From: Botrytis cinerea B05.10
Lineage: Eukaryota > Ascomycota > Leotiomycetes > Helotiales > Sclerotiniaceae
DNA length: 64,000 bases
NCBI RefSeq assembly: GCF_000143535.2
Contig: NC_037316.1
Coordinates: forward strand, 1,364,001-1,428,000
Reading direction: 5' to 3'
Both the position numbers and the translations under genes were made by a program. The notes below the pieces were generated by a model. It saw only the letters and a program-made list of their open reading frames with translations. It did not search any database and was not told the origin of the DNA. Shown in pieces: positions 2,723 through 29,005 of the stretch. Within the stretch, counting starts at the first letter, position 1. Every line of letters begins with the position of its first letter.

Positions 2723-3666
2723 GCGAGGTTGGCAGAGACGAAAATGCTGAAGTCTCACAACATAAGGTGGTATAGAAGTGCGGGGTAATGGTGGGATTTT
2801 CAATATTCATACTTGATGGCTTTGGGATCTGGGGTTTGGAATTTAAGTTCTGGTTTTGGTTGGTATAGCTTTTGAATTTCCTACTTGGTGTTATTATTCT
2901 CGATCCTTTTCAAAGGAGTATATACCATACTTATCTCTTGGCCTTTTGTTTGGAAATGGGCATGATTTGCTATGGTGTAATGAGAGAGGGGAGGTTATTT
3001 GCCTTCTGGATCAGATATGATTAAATGCTCGAATATGGATGGCGTTGAAAAAGGAAGGGTTTTGTTATTATTATTATGACTTCATCAATCGTTCTTAGAA
3101 AAGAATAGGAATGAACTATCATCCCTTTGAAACGAAACCTTGACGTGACTTTCTGTGTTTGATCTTGTGAAATGGTGCATTTCTCACTGAAGAAGTAGAA
3201 CAAGTGACAATATTGAAAATGTATGGGATTTGACAGAGAGCTCTCCAGTACTTGTATACAACGCTCCAAAAAGTGCGTTGGAAGAGAAGAGCGAGCAGAG
3301 GACGGCAATAGCCAAGCCTTCTTAAGGCGAGCTGAGACGAAAGCAGAAGGAATCTGATATAATGTTGGCCATTTCTCCTATGCCAACTGGATTCTCAAGG
3401 AAAATCTGGTGTTACCGTTACCGTTACCATGGCCATTACGATCAGAGTGGCTTGAGAGTCAAGAGTGGCGATTTCATGGCTTTATGGCTTTGAATATTTT
3501 CCAGAAAGAATTTAGAACATTAGTTTTATATTGGCCTTGTATTGGCCTGATATTCAAGGCAACACATAAGGCGGTCAATCAACCAAGCCCAAAAACATGA
3601 AGCAACCCTGCGAAACCTGCAGAAAAATCCTTTGAGGGGTGGTGGGTTAGTTGACCAGTAACTTTT

Positions 3667-11508: not shown

Positions 11509-11772
11509 ATTAGTGAAACCCCAACGAAACTACCAGCATGCTGTTACAAATTTTCTTCTTCTGAAAGCTCACGCGCTGCGAGTCTCCAGATCCCAGTTCT
11601 TCATCATGGAATAACCTCCGTGTCCATCGAAAAGGTGCCCACTTAAATGTATTGCGAACGACCGTGTCGTCCCATCAAATATATCAATGATGAACATTCT
11701 CCCACGAGATTTTTTTTCCTTCCCTTTTAAATTCGTCGCGCTACCGTAGAGTCTAGGAAACTTTATTTTCAA

Positions 11773-14087
11773 ATGGCTTCTTCTTATAACTACAGCACAT
11801 CCAGTTCTGAAGTCGGAACTCCATACACTCCTAGATCTTCTTCTCCTACTTATTCCGTCGCAAGTCGTTCTTCTTCTACCACTATCAGTAAACGCATTTC
11901 CATTTCTACAAGTCGGAGAAATACAGCTATGAATCCTATAGGTGGCATTGACATTGCTGCCATTGAAGCAGCCATGAAGCAGTCTTCTCTTGACCACCTC
12001 AAAGGTTATAGTCAGACGAATTATCCCACGGTCACTCAATCCAATGATACCGAATACATCTCCCAAGAATCCGCCCAGGGATATCAGGTTCTTCGTGAGC
12101 CTGCATGGAATAAAGGTACATTCTCATCTTCTCTCTCTCTCGCATTTCCAACCCCTCAAATTTCTGATTCGCAAAAAGGTACCTCCTTTACTCCCGAAGA
12201 CAGAGTCAACAAAAACCTTACTGGTCTCATCCCTCACGTCCTAGAGAGCCTCGAAACCCAATGTATCCGCGCCATGAGAATGATCAATAGTCGCACTACC
12301 CCCATCGATAAATACCTCTACCTCTCCAACATCAAAGCCCAAAACACAGATCTCTTCTACCGTCTCTTGATCGATAATATCGCTACCCTCATGCCCCTCG
12401 TCTATACCCCCACCATCGGTGATGTCTGTCTCCAATACTCCACTCTATATACCCGTCCAGAAGCATTATATATTTCCATCAAACAACGTAAATCCATGAC
12501 TACCATCCTCAGAAATTGGCCATATCCAAATCCTTCGATTTGCGTCGTGACAGATGGATCACGCATTCTGGGTCTTGGCGATCTCGGTGTTAACGGTGTT
12601 GGAATCTCGGTTCGTAGCCTGCCCCCTTTTCCCCTCAAAGAATAAAAAACATCTCCTCCCCTCCCTCTCAAACCTCAACCCTCCCTTGCCCCCTCCCCCT
12701 TCTTCCTCTCAAATCCTAACCCCCTCCCAGATCGGCAAGCTAGCCCTCTACACCGGCGCCGCCGGAATCCACCCCTCCCAAACCCTCCCCATCGTCCTCG
12801 ACTGCGGAACCGCCAACGAAGAAAATCTCCGCGACCCCCTCTACCTCGGTCTCCGCATGAAGCGTCCAGGCCCCGAAATCGAACAGCAATTCATGGATGA
12901 ATTCATGGCTGCCGTCAAGGAAGTCTACCCCGACATGCTCGTGCAATTCGAAGATTTCGAATCCGAAAAGGCCTTCAAGTATCTCGATCGTTACAAGAAG
13001 GAAAAAATGTTTAATGATGATATTCAGGGTACTGGAGCGGTGGTGTTAGCTGGGTATGTGTTTTTTGTTTTGCGTTTTAATTTCTCCTCCCCCCCCCCCC
13101 CCCTTTTAGGAAATGATATCGTTTCTCCCAAATTTCCACTTTTTTACTCTTCATTTTTCATTCTAAATCTAACACACATCAATTAGCTACATCGGTGCAG
13201 TCAATCTCTCCGGAGTCCCCATCGAAGATCAACGCCTGGTCTTCATGGGCGCCGGCTCCGCCGGCGTCGGCGTCGCAAAACAAGTCATGGAATACTACAC
13301 CCGACGCGGCCTCAGCGAAAAAGACGCCCGCGACAAATTCTGGCTCGTCGACACCAAAGGACTCGTGACCACCGACCGCGGCGACAAATTAGCCGCACAC
13401 AAGAAAATCTTCGCCCGAGATGACAATCATGGCCATCAATTTGCGACGCTGGAAGAAGTCATCGAGTATGTGAAACCGACGGCGTTGATCGGGCTAACGG
13501 CTACTTTTGGCGTCTTTACGGAATCGGTGGTGAGAGCGTTGAAAGGGAGTGTGGATGCGGGCGGGTTGGGTCGCAGACCCATTCTCTTCCCGCTCAGCAA
13601 TCCCCTCACGAAAGCAGAATGTACATTCGAACAAGCCATTACCTGGACAGAGGGAACGGTAATTTTCGCCTCGGGCTCCCCCTTCTCGCCCGTCACGATC
13701 AAGCATTCCGATTCTTCATCGTCGTCGTCGTCGGAAAATTCCACGACCTATTATCCCAATCAGGGAAATAACGTCTACGTATTCCCGGGATTGGGACTCG
13801 GAGCGATTTTGGCAAAGGCGTCGAGAGTCACCGATGCCATGGTGTATCAGAGCGCGGAAGCGCTGTCGGGATGTTTGAATCGCGAGGAGTTGATGATGGG
13901 GCTTATTTATCCGAAGATTGGCAGGGTGCGAGATGCGAGTGTGGTGGTTGCGAGGGAGGTGATGAAGGCGGCGAGGAGGGAGGGCGTCAGTGGGTTGAGT
14001 GAGGAGTGTTGGGCTGTGTGGGAGGAGTGGGGTGATGTGGCGTTGGAGAATTGGATTAAGAAACAGGTTTATGATCCAAGGTGGTAG
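11773..14087 (+). CDS. malic enzyme (malate oxidoreductase, decarboxylating)
   Basis: Four exons, 11773-12115, 12179-12609, 12731-13053 and 13187-14087, give 665 residues, close to the 669 of yeast Mae1. The enzyme converts malate to pyruvate and CO2 with NAD(P)+. Visible family motifs are NKGTSFTPEDR, PLVYTPTIGDVC, RILGLGDLGVNGVGI, IGKLALYTGAAGI, VLDCGTANEENLRDPLY, FNDDIQGTGAVVLAGY (metal and substrate site) and the second dinucleotide site FMGAGSAGVGVA. The first intron is 63 bp, a multiple of three and without an in-frame stop; family continuity across NKG|TSFTPEDR shows it should be removed. The N-terminal 55 residues are Ser-rich and basic with no clear presequence, so mitochondrial or cytosolic location is open. 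A Ser-rich insert (HSDSSSSSSSENS) sits near the C-terminal third. NAD versus NADP preference cannot be decided by eye. Confidence 0.95.
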
Positions 14088-18586: not shown

Positions 18587-21500
18587 ATGGATCAATACTT
18601 TACAAATCCAATGCCTCTTCAGAGGAGGCTAACCAAAATCTATACCGATACCAAAAACATCTATGATTTCATCAAAGAGCCCGTCAGAAATGTCGAAGAT
18701 CACGAACTTCAATTACTACATCGAAAATTACGTATTCAACAAAGCCGTTTGGTCTCGTGGGGTTTGGAATGGTCGGATCCTTCACAGTCACCTGATATCG
18801 ATGAATCGGTATCAAAGGCTGGTTTGTCTGAAATTGTCGGAAATGTGATGTCAACGATCAAGGAAATCTTGGCCGAAGCCGAACCATTATGGCAATCTTC
18901 CAAAAGGTCAACAGACGAGAGACCATCGGAAAAATCGGAAAAGAGTGCTTTGATTCAATGGGACAAAACGAGGTTTGAGGATTTGATTCGAGATTTAACC
19001 ATGTCCATTGATACTTTATATGATTTATCAAAAACACGTCAGACAGCAAGGACGGGTCTGCAAACCTCGGAAGCTTCAAGCTCCAAAGACAAATCTTCAG
19101 GATTCGAAGAACGACAATTTGAATCAACGAGAATGTCAGCACCACAACAAATAGACCCAGCAACATTGATCTGGACGGGGAATCAAATCATTGCGACGCG
19201 TGGTACGTCACGATCAATATCAAATAACACTTTGAGGCAGATAGTTTTGATGAGAAGGTCGGTCAATTCTTCGGATTTGAGGCAAGCCATTGATCAACCT
19301 CCCGATCCAATTCCGGTCTTGGTCGAATATGCCCCTTATGATCCTATTTATTCGGTTACTGGAATCACTCCATCGATGACTCGATTCGAAAAACTCTTTG
19401 CGGGGATTTCACAGTCTTATTATTCATCGGATCGATTGCCAGTTGGATTACTGCGTCTCATTGGATATTATGAAGATGCAGAGCATTCGAGATTTTGTTT
19501 ATTATTCTCTTTACCCACAAATTTTGGGCCGATGGACATTCAAAGCCCAACTTTACAGATGCCTATAATAAGTTCCTTGTCTGAGCTTTTGATAAGTCCT
19601 GCATTCGAACCCAACCTAGAGGTCAAGTACAGATTGGCCTACAACATAGCCAATGCTGTGTTTGATCTACACTCGAAAGGCATTGTTCATGGCAACCTAC
19701 TTCCTTCCAATGTTCTCTTCATTGAACACCCTACTCCACCACGTGCTTTTGATTTGACACAGATTAATATGCGACAATCGTATCTAGGCTCCTTTGATTT
19801 GTTTTCGGACACGGCTACGGATTCCGGTCCAAGTTTTGACTCGGTCAGTATGTTGTATAAGCATCCTCTGGATCCGAGAAGTACCAAATATACCAATCTA
19901 TCTCAAGAGAGCAAGTCCTTGGATTTATACAGTCTCGCGATGATCCTTATTGAAATTGGTCTATGGGGCTCTTTATCCGAATTATTTCCAAGGGCGTCTC
20001 AAGTCCCTTCAAATCCTACTGAGGTTCTCAAACGCCTCGCATCTAGGTGTGGAAACATCTATGTCAAAGCAGTGAAAGCATGTTTGAGTGCTCCTGAAGG
20101 AGAACTTTCACGAAAAGCAAGACCAGATGTTATGCATCAAAAAGTCTTTTGGCGTGTGTCGAAAGCACTCAATACTTGTTGTTCACTTGACGATGTTTCA
20201 GATGATGATAGTGAAAGAAGTGACGAGCCATCACTTGTACCTACACCTGTGAAGATTGAAGCCCCATCTTCATCTATCAAGGGATATCGTGAACGACGAG
20301 ATGCAAAGATTGATATTACTGCTCCTCAGGAACCAGAAATCAATTGGGGCGAGAAACCGATTCGTGAAAAATCCCCTCAAAAAGCTACTGTTGAGTGGCC
20401 AGAAAAGAAATCTTCTGGTGAGTTGATACCCTTTCAAATACCCTCTCATAAAATTTGTCATCTAACTTCTCTCGTCTCAGCCATTGAACCAATAAAGTCA
20501 AAACCCAAGCTCAAGACATTCCCCGCTATTCGGATTAGTCAGGAGCATATCAATTTGTGGCATACCAATATCATGCCACATGTCAACCACGTTCTTCGAA
20601 GTTTTTATAAGAAATATCCCGAATCGGTCGAAATTTCTCTCGAATCAGTTGGTGAATCATCTACGAAAACGAAACCTACCATCCTCGTCATATGTACAAG
20701 TGTCAACAAGGTTCGGAGTATACTGAAGAAGAGTCTTGTTTATGACAAAGCTACATATGGCTTGAAAGTTTGTCGTGGAAAGGTTGTGAGGGCGAGAAGT
20801 GGCGGTGTAAAGCGAAGTATGGCACACGGCGATGAACTTGAAGCGAAGAATACAGAACATCAAGAGCGTCCAAAGAATGGTGCTAGTATGGGGGCATTTA
20901 TCAATGATCATCATCTTCCACCTGTGTCCTTCGGAGGTCTCGTTACAGTCGATAACAAACCTTATGGAATGTCTGTTCATCATATGTTGGATGATCCTTC
21001 TGATAACGAAGATGAAGAACAAGTTCAGCCATCAAAACCAATTCTTCGCTCTTCAGCTCGTCCTCAAGCCCTTCCTCAATACCTCGAAATGCCAGATTTA
21101 ACACACTCGGATACATCCTACTACTCGAGTGGTGATGAAGAATACAATTATAGTTTTACAGATTACTCATCTTCTGGTTCATCATTTGATTCCGATTCAT
21201 CCCCTTATGCATCAGAAGATGAAGATGATTCCGATGGCGAATTTCCTACTCTCGAACCAGGAGATATCCCTCCTATCCCTGTCTCTTCTTCAAACGTTCA
21301 CAATTATCCAATCACCCAACCAGCTATCGATGACATCGATCCAGATTTTTACCCTGATCCCGAAACTAGAGATGAGGATCATTTAGATTCATGTTTATTG
21401 GGTAGTGTCTATACGAGTTCTGGAATCCGTCGATTAGCTCATGAAAACATCACTCATGAAATTGATTGGTGCCTTTTCAAATTTGAAGAACATCGTCTAC

Positions 21501-22888
21501 CAGATTTTTCTTCCTCAATGTCCCTAAAAGCACAACCGACAGGCGTTGTGCCTTTAACGGATCTTCCAGATCTACCAGTGAAATGTACAGCTAGAACAAG
21601 TGGTACACAAACCGGACGAATACTTCCTTCAATGTCTATTCTCAAAATTTTCGGTCGAAAAACTCCATCTATGAGTTGGCAAGTCGCGGGTAAAATCGGG
21701 GTTCCAGGTGATAGTGGAGCTTGGGTTTTAGAACGAGGAGATGATATCAGTACAGGACCAGGAAATAATAGTGGAAGAATTGCTGGTAGTGTATTAGCAT
21801 GGAGTCAACGGAGAAACGTCGGATATATTTGTCCCATGTGGATTAGTATTTTGGATATGGCAAATTCGTTGAAGTGTGACAATATTGGATTGCCAGGTAT
21901 TGAAATACCTATTTGGAGTAAGGTGTCTACAAGAAAGGGAAGAGATACTGTCTCGCCTGTTCTTAGAAAAGCCTTTAGTTTTACGAGTGACAGGAATATT
22001 GGTGGATGGGATAGCGAAGACGAAACACATAACTTGAGAGACAATCAACCTCAGAGTGGAACTTATCCGGTGGTTATCGATGATGATCTTGCGGATGATG
22101 AAGATGAATTATCGGGTGTTTTAGGAAATTTAAAACACGTGGGATCTGATCATGAGTTTGAATATGCAGATCATGGTGAGTATGATGATGATGATGAATC
22201 TTATGATGAGGAAGAAGAGAGGGAATATTGGAGTCGATTTAAAGCCGCAAGTGTTAGTCCGGAACGTGTAAAGGGAAAGGGTACAGATGATGAGCATCAA
22301 TATCGACATGAGCTTCCGGGTGATGAACATCAATATCGAAATGAGTTTGCGAATGATGAACATCAATATCGACATGAATTTGCAAATAATGAGCATCAGT
22401 ATCAAAATGAGTTTGCAATTAATGAGCATCAATATCGAAATGAGTTTGCAAATGAATATGATCCGAATCATCAAGGAATTGAATATCAGCATTCACTTGA
22501 GAAAGAAGTTTTGATCTCAAGCGAAGAAGAACCAGAACTTTTGGCTACACTTGGTCAACCTTCTCGAAGAGGAAGAGGATTCGGAGTAAGAACTTTTAGT
22601 GGCGATAAGAGTTTGGAAATCGATATGATGGTGGGAGGACTCAAAGGTTTGAGTATTGAGGGAAATACAATGCCTGGGAAGAATACAGTTTTCAGTATGG
22701 ATGGAAGTGCAATTGGAGATTTCACGGTTGGCGGAGCGGGAGAATTTGATGTGGGAGGAAGTGGACAAAGGAGAGAAACGAGGAGTCGAGGAAGTGGGAG
22801 TGCGCATTCGGGAACTGGAAGTTTGGGAAGTTTAAATGGGATGGTTCAGGGAGAGGGGAATAGGCAAAGGGTTAGGGTTAGGGGTTAG
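18587..22888 (+). CDS. HeLo-like / pseudokinase / trypsin-fold protease multidomain protein
   Basis: Two exons, 18587-20417 and 20481-22888, give 1412 residues. The 63 bp intron (GTGAGT donor, CTAAC branch site, CAG acceptor) has no in-frame stop and would add 21 residues if kept. Residues about 1-110 resemble HeLo-type domains of fungal incompatibility proteins ([19 protein letters not shown], then a helical segment). Residues about 190-530 look like a protein kinase fold in which the catalytic loop is [11 protein letters not shown] (His368), with Asn for the catalytic Asp and no DFG, so probably a pseudokinase. Residues about 740-1080 look like a trypsin-fold protease: His in SVHHML (777/778), Asp in IDWCLFKF (939) and Ser in GDSGAW (1022). 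Acidic stretches separate the parts. Five 11-residue repeats near 1214-1268 and a Gly-rich tail follow. A role in self/non-self or cell-death signalling is a guess. Confidence 0.85.
22289..22453 (+). repeat. five 33 bp coding repeats
   Basis: Five tandem 33 bp units encode (D/N)EHQY(R/Q)xE(F/L)xx-type 11-residue repeats near the C-terminus of the multidomain protein. The frame is kept through all copies. Unit number may vary between strains. Confidence 0.9.
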
Positions 22889-23550: not shown

Positions 23551-23651
23551 AGCCCAACGGGGGGGTCGAACCCCCAACCTTGTGATTTCTGAAGAACTCA
23601 TAGATATGGAATCATAAGAGTCACACGCTCTACCGATTGAGCTAGCCGGGC
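23551..23651 (-). tRNA. tRNA-Lys(CTT) with a 28 bp intron
   Basis: On the minus strand the cloverleaf is complete: acceptor GCCCGGC with GTTGGGC (two G-U pairs), D-arm GCTC...GAGC, anticodon stem TGTGA/TCACA with loop CTCTTAA (anticodon CTT), and T-arm GGGGG-TTCGACC-CCCCC. The discriminator is T, as in yeast tRNA-Lys(CTT). An intron at plus coordinates 23587-23614 follows base 37, the canonical site, leaving 73 nt mature. A-box (TAGCTCAATCGG) and B-box (GGTTCGACC) are perfect. Confidence 0.96.
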
Positions 23652-23885: not shown

Positions 23886-24288
23886 TATGATGATGATTTA
23901 TTAGTCTAGATAGTTATTAGATAACGTTAACTATTAGATCGATAGATTCTTATTATTGGTATAACGACCAATTGGACGTGCGTCATAATCATACATACCT
24001 ATCGTTACGCATTACTTCGTACCGTGGAAGTGCATTTGGTGTTTAATTAAGTTAGCTGGTGGGTAAGGTTAGTAGGTACCGGTCGTCGAAAGCTAGGTAT
24101 GAAGTTAACTTTCTCCCCTTCCTTCGCGTTCGTCCGTGGGGAAAGTCACGTTTATGAGCTAGGTACAATGTATTATATACGTGAGCGTCGACGTCGACGT
24201 CGCGGACTTCGTCTCATCTCATCTTATCTCATCTTATCTCGATATCAGGGTAGGAAATTAGAGGTGCCTGGGATTGAGTATTACTTAA

Positions 24289-24368
24289 TTGTATTGTATT
24301 GTATTGTATTGTATTGTATTGTATTGTATTGTATTGTATTGTATTGTATTGTATTGTATTGTATTGTA
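24289..24368 (+). repeat. pentanucleotide array (TTGTA)16
   Basis: Sixteen perfect tandem TTGTA units. Open frames on both strands across it are repeat translations and not genes. Confidence 0.97.
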
Positions 24369-26394
24369 CTGTATGTACTATTTTGTGAATTGATTCGAGA
24401 TGGTCAGTCGATTTTGGGAAAATGTTATAGGGTTTGAGATATTGAGAGGAAAAGTTGAAGAATTGCATCGTCGGAACCTCGATTTCGGAAGATTTCTGTA
24501 CTTCTCTCTCTGTCGAATTCTGGGGTGGGGATAATGTCGATATGGATGAACTAGTATCTATGATTGATCCATCTAGATTCCAAAGACTCGGTCAAGTGAA
24601 TTTGGTAGCTTACATCCTCTCCCGGATGGTACCCCTCGCTTGTGGTCTACAAATTCATTATGCAGCTCCGCCACGAAGATAGCCAGCCAGGTTACTCTCC
24701 TTGTCCTAACATCGTGCAGCATGTGCATCTACATTTAGAGTTGAATGCGTTCTGACTGTAGAAATACGTACCTCGTCTGTCTCATTTCGTTAATCCCTAC
24801 ATACAATCTGTTATCTTCCATTCAGCCGCCTGCTGTAGATGTTTCTTGCAAGTAAACGCCATCCCGAGTAGGGATGGGCTGACTCGACTTCACATGGGAT
24901 TTGGGCGGCTGGTCTATGATGAGAAATCAGATCTGTATGCAGGTTTGTATTATAGATGTGGCTGCATATCAATACCACCTTCCTAATAGTCAGATGGGTA
25001 GCATTGATTCACCGGGTGTGCACGGCAAAAATTACAGGCATAATCATTTATATAGATTCTGGTGAGTACACCGCTCAATTGGAAGTGCTTCATAGTCACA
25101 TGCGGCTGAAATGTATTTGGTGTTCAGCTGGTTGTAGAAAGCTATGAAATTATCGTTCGTTCGTCGGTGCGGAAATTTATGAGCTAAAATATGGTAAATC
25201 ACACGTGATCGTCGCGAACCTCATCTCTCTTGTTCACCTAGGAAGGAAGCGGCCACCTATTGTGTATTGTTGTTATTGATACAATGATTCAGAAAATAGA
25301 TACTCGCTTCGAAGAGCATTGTGAGAGTTGAACCTCGTAACTTTAATTGCTGGTATGGGACTCTAGGAGCGTCTGGTGACCTGTTCTCGGCACCGACGCG
25401 TCGACAGTGATGTCTGGTGTATGATGAAAGATCGATCTCTGCCATGGCTTGTACTTCCTGCATATTGTGCGGATAATCTCCTGAGGCTTATATATCTTTC
25501 CACAAATTGGTTTGCTTAGATATGGAACAACAAAGTTTGTCCAAATCCTGGATGCGGGGTGGAGAGATATCTCTAAGTTTATTTGGCTCATGGTTGGACC
25601 CCAAAATGCCATATTTGAGCTTCATTGTCGCAAATATGGATGATGTGGTGAATTTATGAGATGGGGATGTAAGAATCGGCGTGTTTTGGGTAGAACACAA
25701 ATATATCTCGACTTCGATGAGAGAGACAAAACACTTGTCGTCAATTTCCAGAATGCGACTCACCAAGATAGGTATGCTCGAAAGTCTCATCGAAAGTCCC
25801 GGTCGTCATTGCACTGCTTCCAACAATCAGCCTAGAAGAGATCGTATGAAGTTCATGATCTCAATACAGGAAACGATTAAGAGCTCTATAGTCCATGTTG
25901 ACTTAATTGTGCTGCAAGTTCAACATCAGGACGATTTTCACAAATTGAGTGGTTTGAGCATGAATACAAAGCAGCAACTGAAATCAACCTTGGAATCATG
26001 GCAAATTCTGGTGTTCACAAAATCTCAGTACATCGGGAATTTACCCCTGATTGTACTAGCTCAGATTTTTGAGATAATCTATAGATTGAACAAACCAAAC
26101 CAATAGTTGGCAACTTAAAGATTATGCAAGTTTGGTCTTCTAGGAATGGGATATGTAATCACGTGTATATTTGAAACCTTGAGCTAGAGCTTGAGCTGTC
26201 CTCTTGTAAGAGCTTTAGCTTAACATTTCATTTCCCGCTAAATTATTTTCATATAAAGAAATAAATTTCTCATATTCCTCTCCTCAAACATTTGGTTCAT
26301 ACGATATCGAATCTCTAAAGAAAAGAACCATCATTTACTTCGACATCATTCAAGCCCTTCTCCCTTTAATAAAAGCATCGTTCGTCTCAAGAAA

Positions 26395-26790
26395 ATGGTA
26401 AGTTACTCTGAAATATGCTCATACACTACAACATAATTTTAAAACTTAAAAATGCAGTCACCATTATCAAATTCATATCGACCAGCATTCGCGCACTGTT
26501 CGGACACAACTCAACGCGTCAATCAAGCTCTTAACTTCTTCGCTCGTCACAATAATTTTACCAAGTTTCCCGAAGGAATGGAATGTATCACAAGCAAAGC
26601 TATGAAGGTGACAAACGACCAAGCTGCTGCTGGTGCATGGGCAATGATGTCTGCTCTCCTCTTTATCTTTCTAATGATTATTCTCAATTGCAATTTCAAA
26701 TACATGAATTGGTCAGGTCCTGATCGTAACTTTGAGCAAGAGGAAGAAGAAAAAACTCCATTTCTTGCACAGGAAGAGAAAAGCATTTAG
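26395..26790 (+). CDS. small single-pass membrane protein A
   Basis: The likely model has two exons: 26395-26397 (the start codon alone) and 26458-26790. The 60 bp intron begins GTAAGT and ends GCAG. It gives 111 residues starting MSPLSNSY. An unspliced start at 26452 (MQSPLS) is an alternative with the same reading frame. Residues about 1-60 hold two Cys (AHCSD, MECITS). One membrane segment (AWAMMSALLFIFLMIILNC, about 63-81) follows, then a short acidic cytosolic tail (EQEEEEKTPF). No known family was recognised. It is first of three adjacent plus-strand genes with similar layout, and this recurring pattern is the main argument that it is real. Confidence 0.55.
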
Positions 26791-27327: not shown

Positions 27328-27838
27328 ATGGTAAGTGTGCTTTCGATTCCGGGTGGTCCAGAAGCAGAATGTCGAAAGGTTCAGACTAGAGTACCATGGA
27401 GATATTTCGATTCGATGAACTCATTTTAGTTCCTGAGTTCTTTAATTAACTAACTTGACTTGAATTTCAAATACTAAAAACTTTCTCCGGCAGGAGCCAG
27501 TCCAATTTTATCTCAACTATATTTTTCTATCGAGCTCCTCCCTTCTTTTCGATTCCTCTAGCCTCTCAAACTCGACTGCCACTGATGAATGCAAAGAGAT
27601 TGAGGATATAGTGTGCAATCGGAGACTATACTTAATAGGAATGATGATATTATTCAGCATCAATTTTATTCTCTCTACAATGCGATTATTTTCAAGAATT
27701 CACGACAATCGCCAACAAACAGTGAGACGAGATGTTGCAGCGGAAATTCCAGACTTGCGGGAGGAGATTAGATCTAATAAACTTAAGGAAAAGAGTTCTT
27801 CTGAATTACACTTAAGGGTTTTTGAGAGGATAACATAA
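27328..27838 (+). CDS. small single-pass membrane protein B
   Basis: Proposed exons are 27328-27330 (start codon alone, ATG|GTAAGTG) and 27494-27838, separated by a 163 bp intron with a CTAAC branch site and a GGCAG acceptor. The product has 115 residues beginning MEPVQFYLNYIF. It has an N-terminal part with two Cys (DECKEIEDIVC), one membrane segment (YLIGMMILFSINFILSTMRLF, about 47-67), and a basic/acidic tail predicted helical (DLREEIRSNKLKEK). No family was recognised. The same ATG-only first exon as in gene A supports the structure. It could also be a chance frame, but the hydrophobic segment followed by positive charges looks designed. Confidence 0.45.
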
Positions 27839-28585: not shown

Positions 28586-29005
28586 ATGTCACCAGCTTAT
28601 TACCGAACGTGGCACATTATCAGATCTATTTATACAACCGGTATATATATGCAACCAGACATCCCGTCATCCGAATCAAATAGCACATCGGAAACAGACC
28701 ATGCAACAGCAGAACCCGATCCAACCAGCCCTTTTGAAAACACAGTTCACACAACCTCAACAATGACCATACTCGCGCTCCTCTTGGTCTTGATTATTGT
28801 AATGTGTGTACTCATCTGGTATTGTTATACTAAGAAATGGGCCGCGGTGCACAAAGGACATAAGAAAGCTAAGGAAGTGAAGAAAAGCATGCAAGCAAAA
28901 GAAGAGGCAGACTTGGAGGGAGCAAAGGAAGAATTGAGAACGAGTACTTCTAAAAGCAAAGATGCTTCAGTCATATGTATCAGTGTCTCAATTGTCAGCT
29001 CTTGA
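28586..29005 (+). CDS. small single-pass membrane protein C
   Basis: Intronless, 139 residues from the first ATG. The N-terminal 66 residues are polar and Ser/Thr-rich (SSESNSTSETDH), with several possible N- or O-glycosylation sites. One strong membrane segment follows (MTILALLLVLIIVMCVLIWY, about 66-85), then a Lys-rich helical tail (HKKAKEVKK) with acidic residues. No family was recognised. The order of parts matches its two upstream neighbours though the sequences are not evidently homologous. A membrane-anchored surface or signalling adaptor role is a guess. Confidence 0.55.
   Translation: MSPAYYRTWHIIRSIYTTGIYMQPDIPSSESNSTSETDHATAEPDPTSPFENTVHTTSTMTILALLLVLIIVMCVLIWYCYTKKWAAVHKGHKKAKEVKKSMQAKEEADLEGAKEELRTSTSKSKDASVICISVSIVSS

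Follow-up and report, generated by a model that had tools for sequence, protein, structure and literature searches.

A probable SltB ortholog in Botrytis cinerea joins a HeLo-type region and a pseudokinase to a predicted trypsin-fold protease

A gene of the gray mold Botrytis cinerea B05.10 raises the question of what a single protein might do with a HeLo-type N-terminus, a degenerate kinase, and a trypsin-like protease. The gene lies on the forward strand at 18587-22888 of the window, by which we mean the whole 64,000-nucleotide stretch analyzed here (contig NC_037316.1, positions 1,364,001 to 1,428,000). A preliminary description made from the letters of this stretch alone took the product for a cell-death or non-self effector and knew of no characterized protein with such a layout. 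That layout has a characterized counterpart in Aspergillus nidulans SltB, whose role is in stress signaling (PMC4557415, PMC11011638). We consider it highly likely, judging from sequence features, that the gene is the ortholog of SltB, which replaces the guess of a cell-death effector by a stress-signaling protease of a kind already known.

We propose that the SltB-like protein would work as a self-gated signaling protease, in which the HeLo-type region and the pseudokinase form a regulatory prodomain that may hold or position the C-terminal trypsin-fold protease. Self-cleavage in a variable linker, reported in A. nidulans and presumed for B. cinerea, would free the protease, and the freed protease would then cut the transcription factor SltA, a step likewise reported in A. 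nidulans and extended here to B. cinerea. The parts of the gene on which this proposal draws are given below, with residues numbered in the unspliced 1433-codon frame. Conservation counts refer to the 196 of 336 sequences that were kept at 1050-1450 amino acids, the SltB-like protein included, and mean identities are to the SltB-like protein.

18587..22888, +, whole SltB-like coding region from ATG to stop (1433 codons before splicing, 1412 once the intron is removed)
18623..19054, +, HeLo-type helical region without a hydrophobic N-terminal helix, residues 13-156 (PF14479, predicted helices, profile match, hydropathy)
19142..20191, +, pseudokinase related to DUF7580 kinase-like domains, residues 186-535
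19694..19696, +, codon of Asn370, in the place of the HRD aspartate of active kinases (N in 171/196, D in 6/196)
20192..20506, +, variable linker, residues 536-640 (22% mean identity, 39% gaps)
20418..20480, +, predicted 63-nt in-frame phase-1 intron (GTGAGT, CTAAC, and CAG signals)
20507..20791, +, alpha/beta domain before the protease, residues 641-735, inside the range matched to rice NARROW LEAF 1 (NAL1) (predicted fold; 64% mean identity)
20864..21901, +, trypsin-fold protease domain, residues 760-1105 (structure prediction and fold comparison)
20978..20983, +, codons of His798 and His799 (each H in 195/196, with 1 gap)
20993..21250, +, acidic Ser/Thr-rich insert between the catalytic His and Asp, residues 803-888 (low predicted local distance difference test score, pLDDT)
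21464..21466, +, codon of Asp960 in HEIDW, the proposed third triad residue (D in 196/196)
21713..21715, +, codon of Ser1043 in GDSGAW, the proposed nucleophile (S in 195/196, with 1 gap)
21785..21787, +, codon of Gly1067, the proposed counterpart of SltB G1156 (G in 196/196)
21902..22885, +, variable C-terminal tail, residues 1106-1433 (20% mean identity)

Several features reported for SltB recur in the B. cinerea protein. SltB (AN6132) is a 1272-amino acid protein found in Pezizomycotina only, in which a pseudokinase without VAIK, HRD, and DFG precedes a chymotrypsin-like protease whose His and Ser are conserved, and it is needed for cation and alkaline-pH tolerance via SltA (PMC4557415). 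Auto-proteolysis frees its pseudokinase, possibly a prodomain, and SltB then processes SltA78kDa to SltA32kDa (PMC11011638), a precedent that favors the earlier suggestion of a degenerate kinase gating a protease. The B. cinerea protein likewise combines a pseudokinase lacking all three motifs (Glu at the proposed beta-3 position, Asn370, no DFG, and a predicted kinase fold) with a C-terminal chymotrypsin-like protease that keeps the conserved His and Ser. Its protease module has a single match in its own genome, with no second gene for this part, and no C-terminal-only relatives of SltB are reported in fungi (PMC4557415). One residue could also be followed across species. A selected SltB mutant carries G1156R, 14 residues past S1142 (PMC4557415, Table 2); the equivalent glycine column, invariant in our alignment, lies 14 residues past the catalytic Ser in 180/196 sequences, and Gly1067 lies 24 residues past Ser1043 because of a short insert. 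The source is inconsistent on some details, giving the catalytic His as 939 or 925 and naming G1156R sltB105 in Table 2 and sltB56 in the discussion (PMC4557415). Taken together, layout, the single own-genome protease match, distribution, and this one residue test indicate that the gene is very probably an SltB ortholog.

Several observations weigh against this assignment. The comparison with SltB was made from its published description and residue numbers. The spacing from SltB His925 (or 939) to Ser1142 is 217 (or 203) residues, compared with 244 in the B. cinerea protein and 220-299 among homologs, in a region where loops vary (n = 194; spacings were measured on alignment columns in 194/196 homologs). 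The three candidates for the SltB triad Asp, left open in the original work as D1037, D1046, or D1049 (PMC4557415), fare no better: the corresponding Asp-Ser distances of 105, 96, and 93 residues occur in 0, 2, and 1 of 194 homologs, respectively. No conserved aromatic residue occupies Ser-16, the place of SltB F1126 (P in 70, S in 21, and A in 19 of 195 sequences); an aromatic column (Y, F, or W in 195/196) lies closer to the catalytic Ser. The 1.15 kb upstream of the gene contain 3 AGGCA (SltA) sites where 1.4 would be expected, a count that 19% of slices reach and that is no significant enrichment, and the predicted intron differs in position from the single sltB intron (nt 3413-3480, PMC4557415). 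The spacing check slightly lowered our confidence in SltB orthology.

The kinase-like region has lost the motifs of an active kinase across the family. As first noticed from the letters, residues 368-370 read HGN instead of HRD; a DxG-like motif is present in 3/196 sequences, and structure prediction returns a kinase fold. The proposed beta-3 position, whose equivalence is taken from a predicted strand, holds Glu in 195/196 sequences and Asp in 1/196. DUF7580 (PF24476) scores 20 bits here, below its cut-off of 27, and exceeds that cut-off in 3/8 relatives. A profile comparison with the DUF7580 domain of L001, one of the HeLo loci elsewhere in the same genome, gave 98.9% (E 1.3e-17, 27% identity over 222 columns), and at this level of sequence comparison the two domains are clearly homologous. 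In searches with PADLOC and NCBIfam models, the kinase region alone was matched (best MkoA, E 2.9e-6; AfsK, E 0.0027). The linker that follows has pLDDT <50 at residues 537-539 and 544-557, in a model ending at residue 560, and is likely to be the region of self-cleavage.

The protease half is revealed by structure comparison only, and not by sequence searches. No Pfam peptidase family matches the SltB-like protein, no Pfam family is common to more than 1/38 members in the protease region, and a profile search of this region against the PDB matched no protease. A trypsin-type fold is predicted, and the residues initially proposed as catalytic are invariant or nearly so, namely the His pair at 798-799, Asp960 in EIDW, and Ser1043 in GDSGAW, which supports the reading of this part as a protease. 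Trypsin-like enzymes carry a T-x-x-H pattern, on which basis His799 is probably the catalytic His. By conservation, the Asp of HEIDW is the best candidate for the third triad residue, since it is invariant and lies between predicted strands as in trypsin-like enzymes. With its triad invariant and the HRD Asp lost, the family appears to have kept its protease, whereas its kinase looks dead. The insert between His and Asp is net negative over residues 805-886 in all 196 sequences and may be an additional control element. Beyond the protease, the C-terminal tail with its repeats is a further difference from SltB; a 33-bp tandem repeat at 22287-22455 (+), in 5.1 copies, encodes an 11-residue repeat there.

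Fold comparison ties this half of the protein to a plant protease. NAL1 (PDB 8pmi, 8pmg, 7y77, and others) shares with the predicted structure of the B. cinerea protein an alpha/beta domain and a trypsin fold in one unit, at 15-16% identity and Foldseek TM scores of ~0.33-0.40 (query) and 0.42-0.52 (target). Superposition by Foldseek was loose, with a root-mean-square deviation of 8.3-13.0 A over 474-553 columns; VIA re-alignment gave 4.5-5.1 A over 286-296 residues. A sequence-level profile search found no match to NAL1 at E 10. NAL1 also differs in having neither a HeLo nor a kinase part and in its reported substrates, TOPLESS-type corepressors; a maize paper describes it as a plant-specific serine protease that degrades a TOPLESS-like corepressor (PMC12915138). 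The modeled structure suggests that the NAL1 two-domain protease is also present in fungi. If this is true, NAL1-type proteases acting on transcription regulators would be common to plants and fungi rather than plant-specific. Yeast Ssy5 (peptidase family S64) provides a functional parallel, since this protease, also of trypsin fold, cleaves a transcription factor and thereby activates it (PMC4557415), and its profile PF08192 gave a weak match, E 0.23, in 1/38 members and nothing in the rest.

At the other end of the protein, the HeLo-type N-terminus proposed in the preliminary description from RLVSWGLEW (residues 54-62) is borne out by PF14479, which scores above its curated cut-off (33.3 bits versus 23.2, best stretch 19-116; 40 bits for residues 1-158 alone). 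The predicted structure has four long helices at residues 14-29, 39-62, 81-107, and 127-156. HeLo membrane attack depends on a hydrophobic N-terminal helix (PMC12881547, PMC10197012), and we find no such helix in this family. The maximum 19-residue hydropathy (KD19) reaches at least 1.0 in 0/194 relatives (2 of the 196 were left out, having no starting M or an N-terminus of length out of range), and its median N-terminal to the RKLRIQ motif is -0.03. Five own-genome HeLo loci have KD19 values of 1.51-1.95; a sixth, L006, matched the later part of the profile only and stands outside this comparison. We infer a role in assembly or docking for the HeLo region, and not in pore formation. Annotation by HeLo alone, as in database entries named het-s domain protein, would mislead toward incompatibility or death genes.

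MLKL combines a four-helix bundle and a pseudokinase in one protein, arranged as a molecular switch. The SltB-like protein resembles it in layout, and differs in having no membrane-attacking helix and a protease as output. Three of the own-genome loci, L001, L002, and L005, also have a HeLo region followed by a kinase-like region, with DUF7580 above its cut-off of 27 bits in L001 only (L002 26.1, L005 24.0); they differ from the SltB-like protein in having the hydrophobic N-terminal helix and in showing no protease in the open reading frames (ORFs) read. By eye, their kinase motifs are degenerate and their layouts MLKL-like. They would be better cell-death candidates than the SltB-like protein. 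We give roughly even chances to the idea that the Slt pathway is driven by a disarmed MLKL-like switch, in which a HeLo region minus its killing helix and a pseudokinase control a NAL1-type protease. If so, a necroptosis-type module was turned into the prodomain of a signaling protease. For the Slt pathway, these results would contribute a front end derived from HeLo, a candidate third residue of the catalytic triad, and a structural link to NAL1 of plants; neither PMC4557415 nor PMC11011638 contains HeLo, HET-s, MLKL, or NAL1 in its main text. The route by which cation and alkaline stress act on SltA was left for future work (PMC4557415), and it becomes directly testable should the HeLo-pseudokinase prodomain be the sensor.

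Two other readings concern the N-terminus. The preliminary description proposed a cell-death or non-self effector in which a degenerate kinase gates a protease; on this reading, the HeLo part would attack membranes. The PF14479 match and the MLKL-like order of HeLo region and pseudokinase fit such a role, as do fungal cell-death systems with HELL-kinase or HELL-pseudokinase proteins and with proteases fused to kinase-like domains (PMC12881547). This role is not supported: the hydrophobic helix is absent from every relative scored and present in five own-genome HeLo loci, the protein is conserved along its full length across two fungal classes, with ~43% identity to Sordariomycetes, and the characterized protein of the same layout is a stress-signaling protease. 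On these three grounds we reject a cell-death effector as the main explanation and regard it as very improbable. It is also rather unlikely, in our assessment, that the N-terminus is a generic helical bundle that happens to score with PF14479 instead of a true HeLo region. The PF14479 scores are modest (21.6-40 bits) and 1/8 further relatives falls below the cut-off, hhalign against the single HeLo protein L001 reached 8.3% over 25 columns, and the HeLo part found no match at E 10 in a profile search of the PDB, all of which a generic bundle would accommodate. However, the other 7/8 further relatives are above the cut-off, all 10 HeLo segments compared with PF14479 give E values of at most 0.1, and the order of a HeLo region followed by a DUF7580-like kinase is the same as in L001. 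Furthermore, a profile of family N-termini (n = 193; 57 after hhalign filtering) matched one built from the five own-genome HeLo sequences at 82.3% (E 1e-5, 136 columns), compared with a maximum of 1.1% in 20 column shuffles.

A third reading keeps an SltB-type regulated protease and changes its target, so that the main substrate in this lineage would not be SltA but a different protein, such as a trafficking component or some other regulator of transcription. The nearest solved fold, NAL1, degrades TOPLESS-type corepressors (PMC12915138), and trafficking suppression and cation tolerance come apart in sltB alleles (PMC4557415), both consistent with a different substrate. Conversely, every genome with sltA has sltB and vice versa (PMC4557415), a co-occurrence that favors SltA as the shared substrate. 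We consider a different main substrate improbable and retain SltA cleavage by a self-gated SltB-type protease as our preferred account.

The family is conserved from end to end. A homolog search with residues 1-1150 gave 876 matches, one with the protease part 179, and one with a Fusarium homolog 532; the best 120 of each were described. Among the matches listed, full-length homologs have 89% identity to the SltB-like protein in two Sclerotinia species, and the named fungal homologs are, as far as we recognize them, from Pezizomycotina, mainly from what we take to be Leotiomycetes and Sordariomycetes. The 120 matches listed for residues 1-1150 have precomputed HeLo PF14479 annotation in 102 cases, DUF7580 in 9, and a peptidase domain in 0, and among the 120 listed protease-part matches none has an annotated Pfam domain and few have a species name. 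One listed cluster (P0042) bears the name of a Rickettsiales metagenome-assembled genome, a bacterial label that we take as contamination. Six signature motifs occur in order in 149/196 sequences under a strict pattern. Mean identity is 71% in the HeLo region, 49% in the pseudokinase, 76% in the first barrel part, 42% in the acidic insert, and 55% in the rest of the protease, and from these alignments the family is conserved along its whole length in Leotiomycetes and Sordariomycetes. Prokaryote and viral contigs, each searched with two peptide patterns, gave 19 and 12 pattern matches, respectively, and no confirmed relative.

The coding region appears to be a single gene. An uninterrupted ORF runs from ATG to stop over 18587-22888 (+), and all 196 sequences align over the whole length, in agreement with the one-gene structure assumed at the outset; on the same evidence we reject an erroneous fusion of two neighboring genes. 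The stretch at 20418-20480 is missing from two Sclerotinia models (P0003 and P0005), and a Botrytis fragariae model (P0002) retains a diverged form of it as coding sequence. After removal of this predicted intron the protein would have 1412 amino acids. The residues 777/778, 939, and 1022 of the preliminary description equal our unspliced numbers minus 21, which fits excision of the 63-nt intron.

The surroundings of the gene hold some further features. Malic enzyme-like ORFs lie upstream at 11731-14087 (+), by reading of the ORFs, and in a Chlorociboria homolog (P0027) the SltB-like protein is fused to two malic enzyme domains, PF00390 and PF03949, which together suggest that gene order is conserved. 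Just 3′ of the sltB-like gene is a tRNA gene at 23551-23651 (-), probably intron-bearing (101 bases versus a 71-position model), which Rfam detected and ARAGORN, run with the bacterial code, did not. Three short forward-strand frames at ~26395-26790, 27330-27838, and 28587-29005 resemble, on inspection by eye, small membrane proteins of the single-pass type, and an ATTGT pentamer is repeated in 17.4 copies with 97% matches at 24288-24374.

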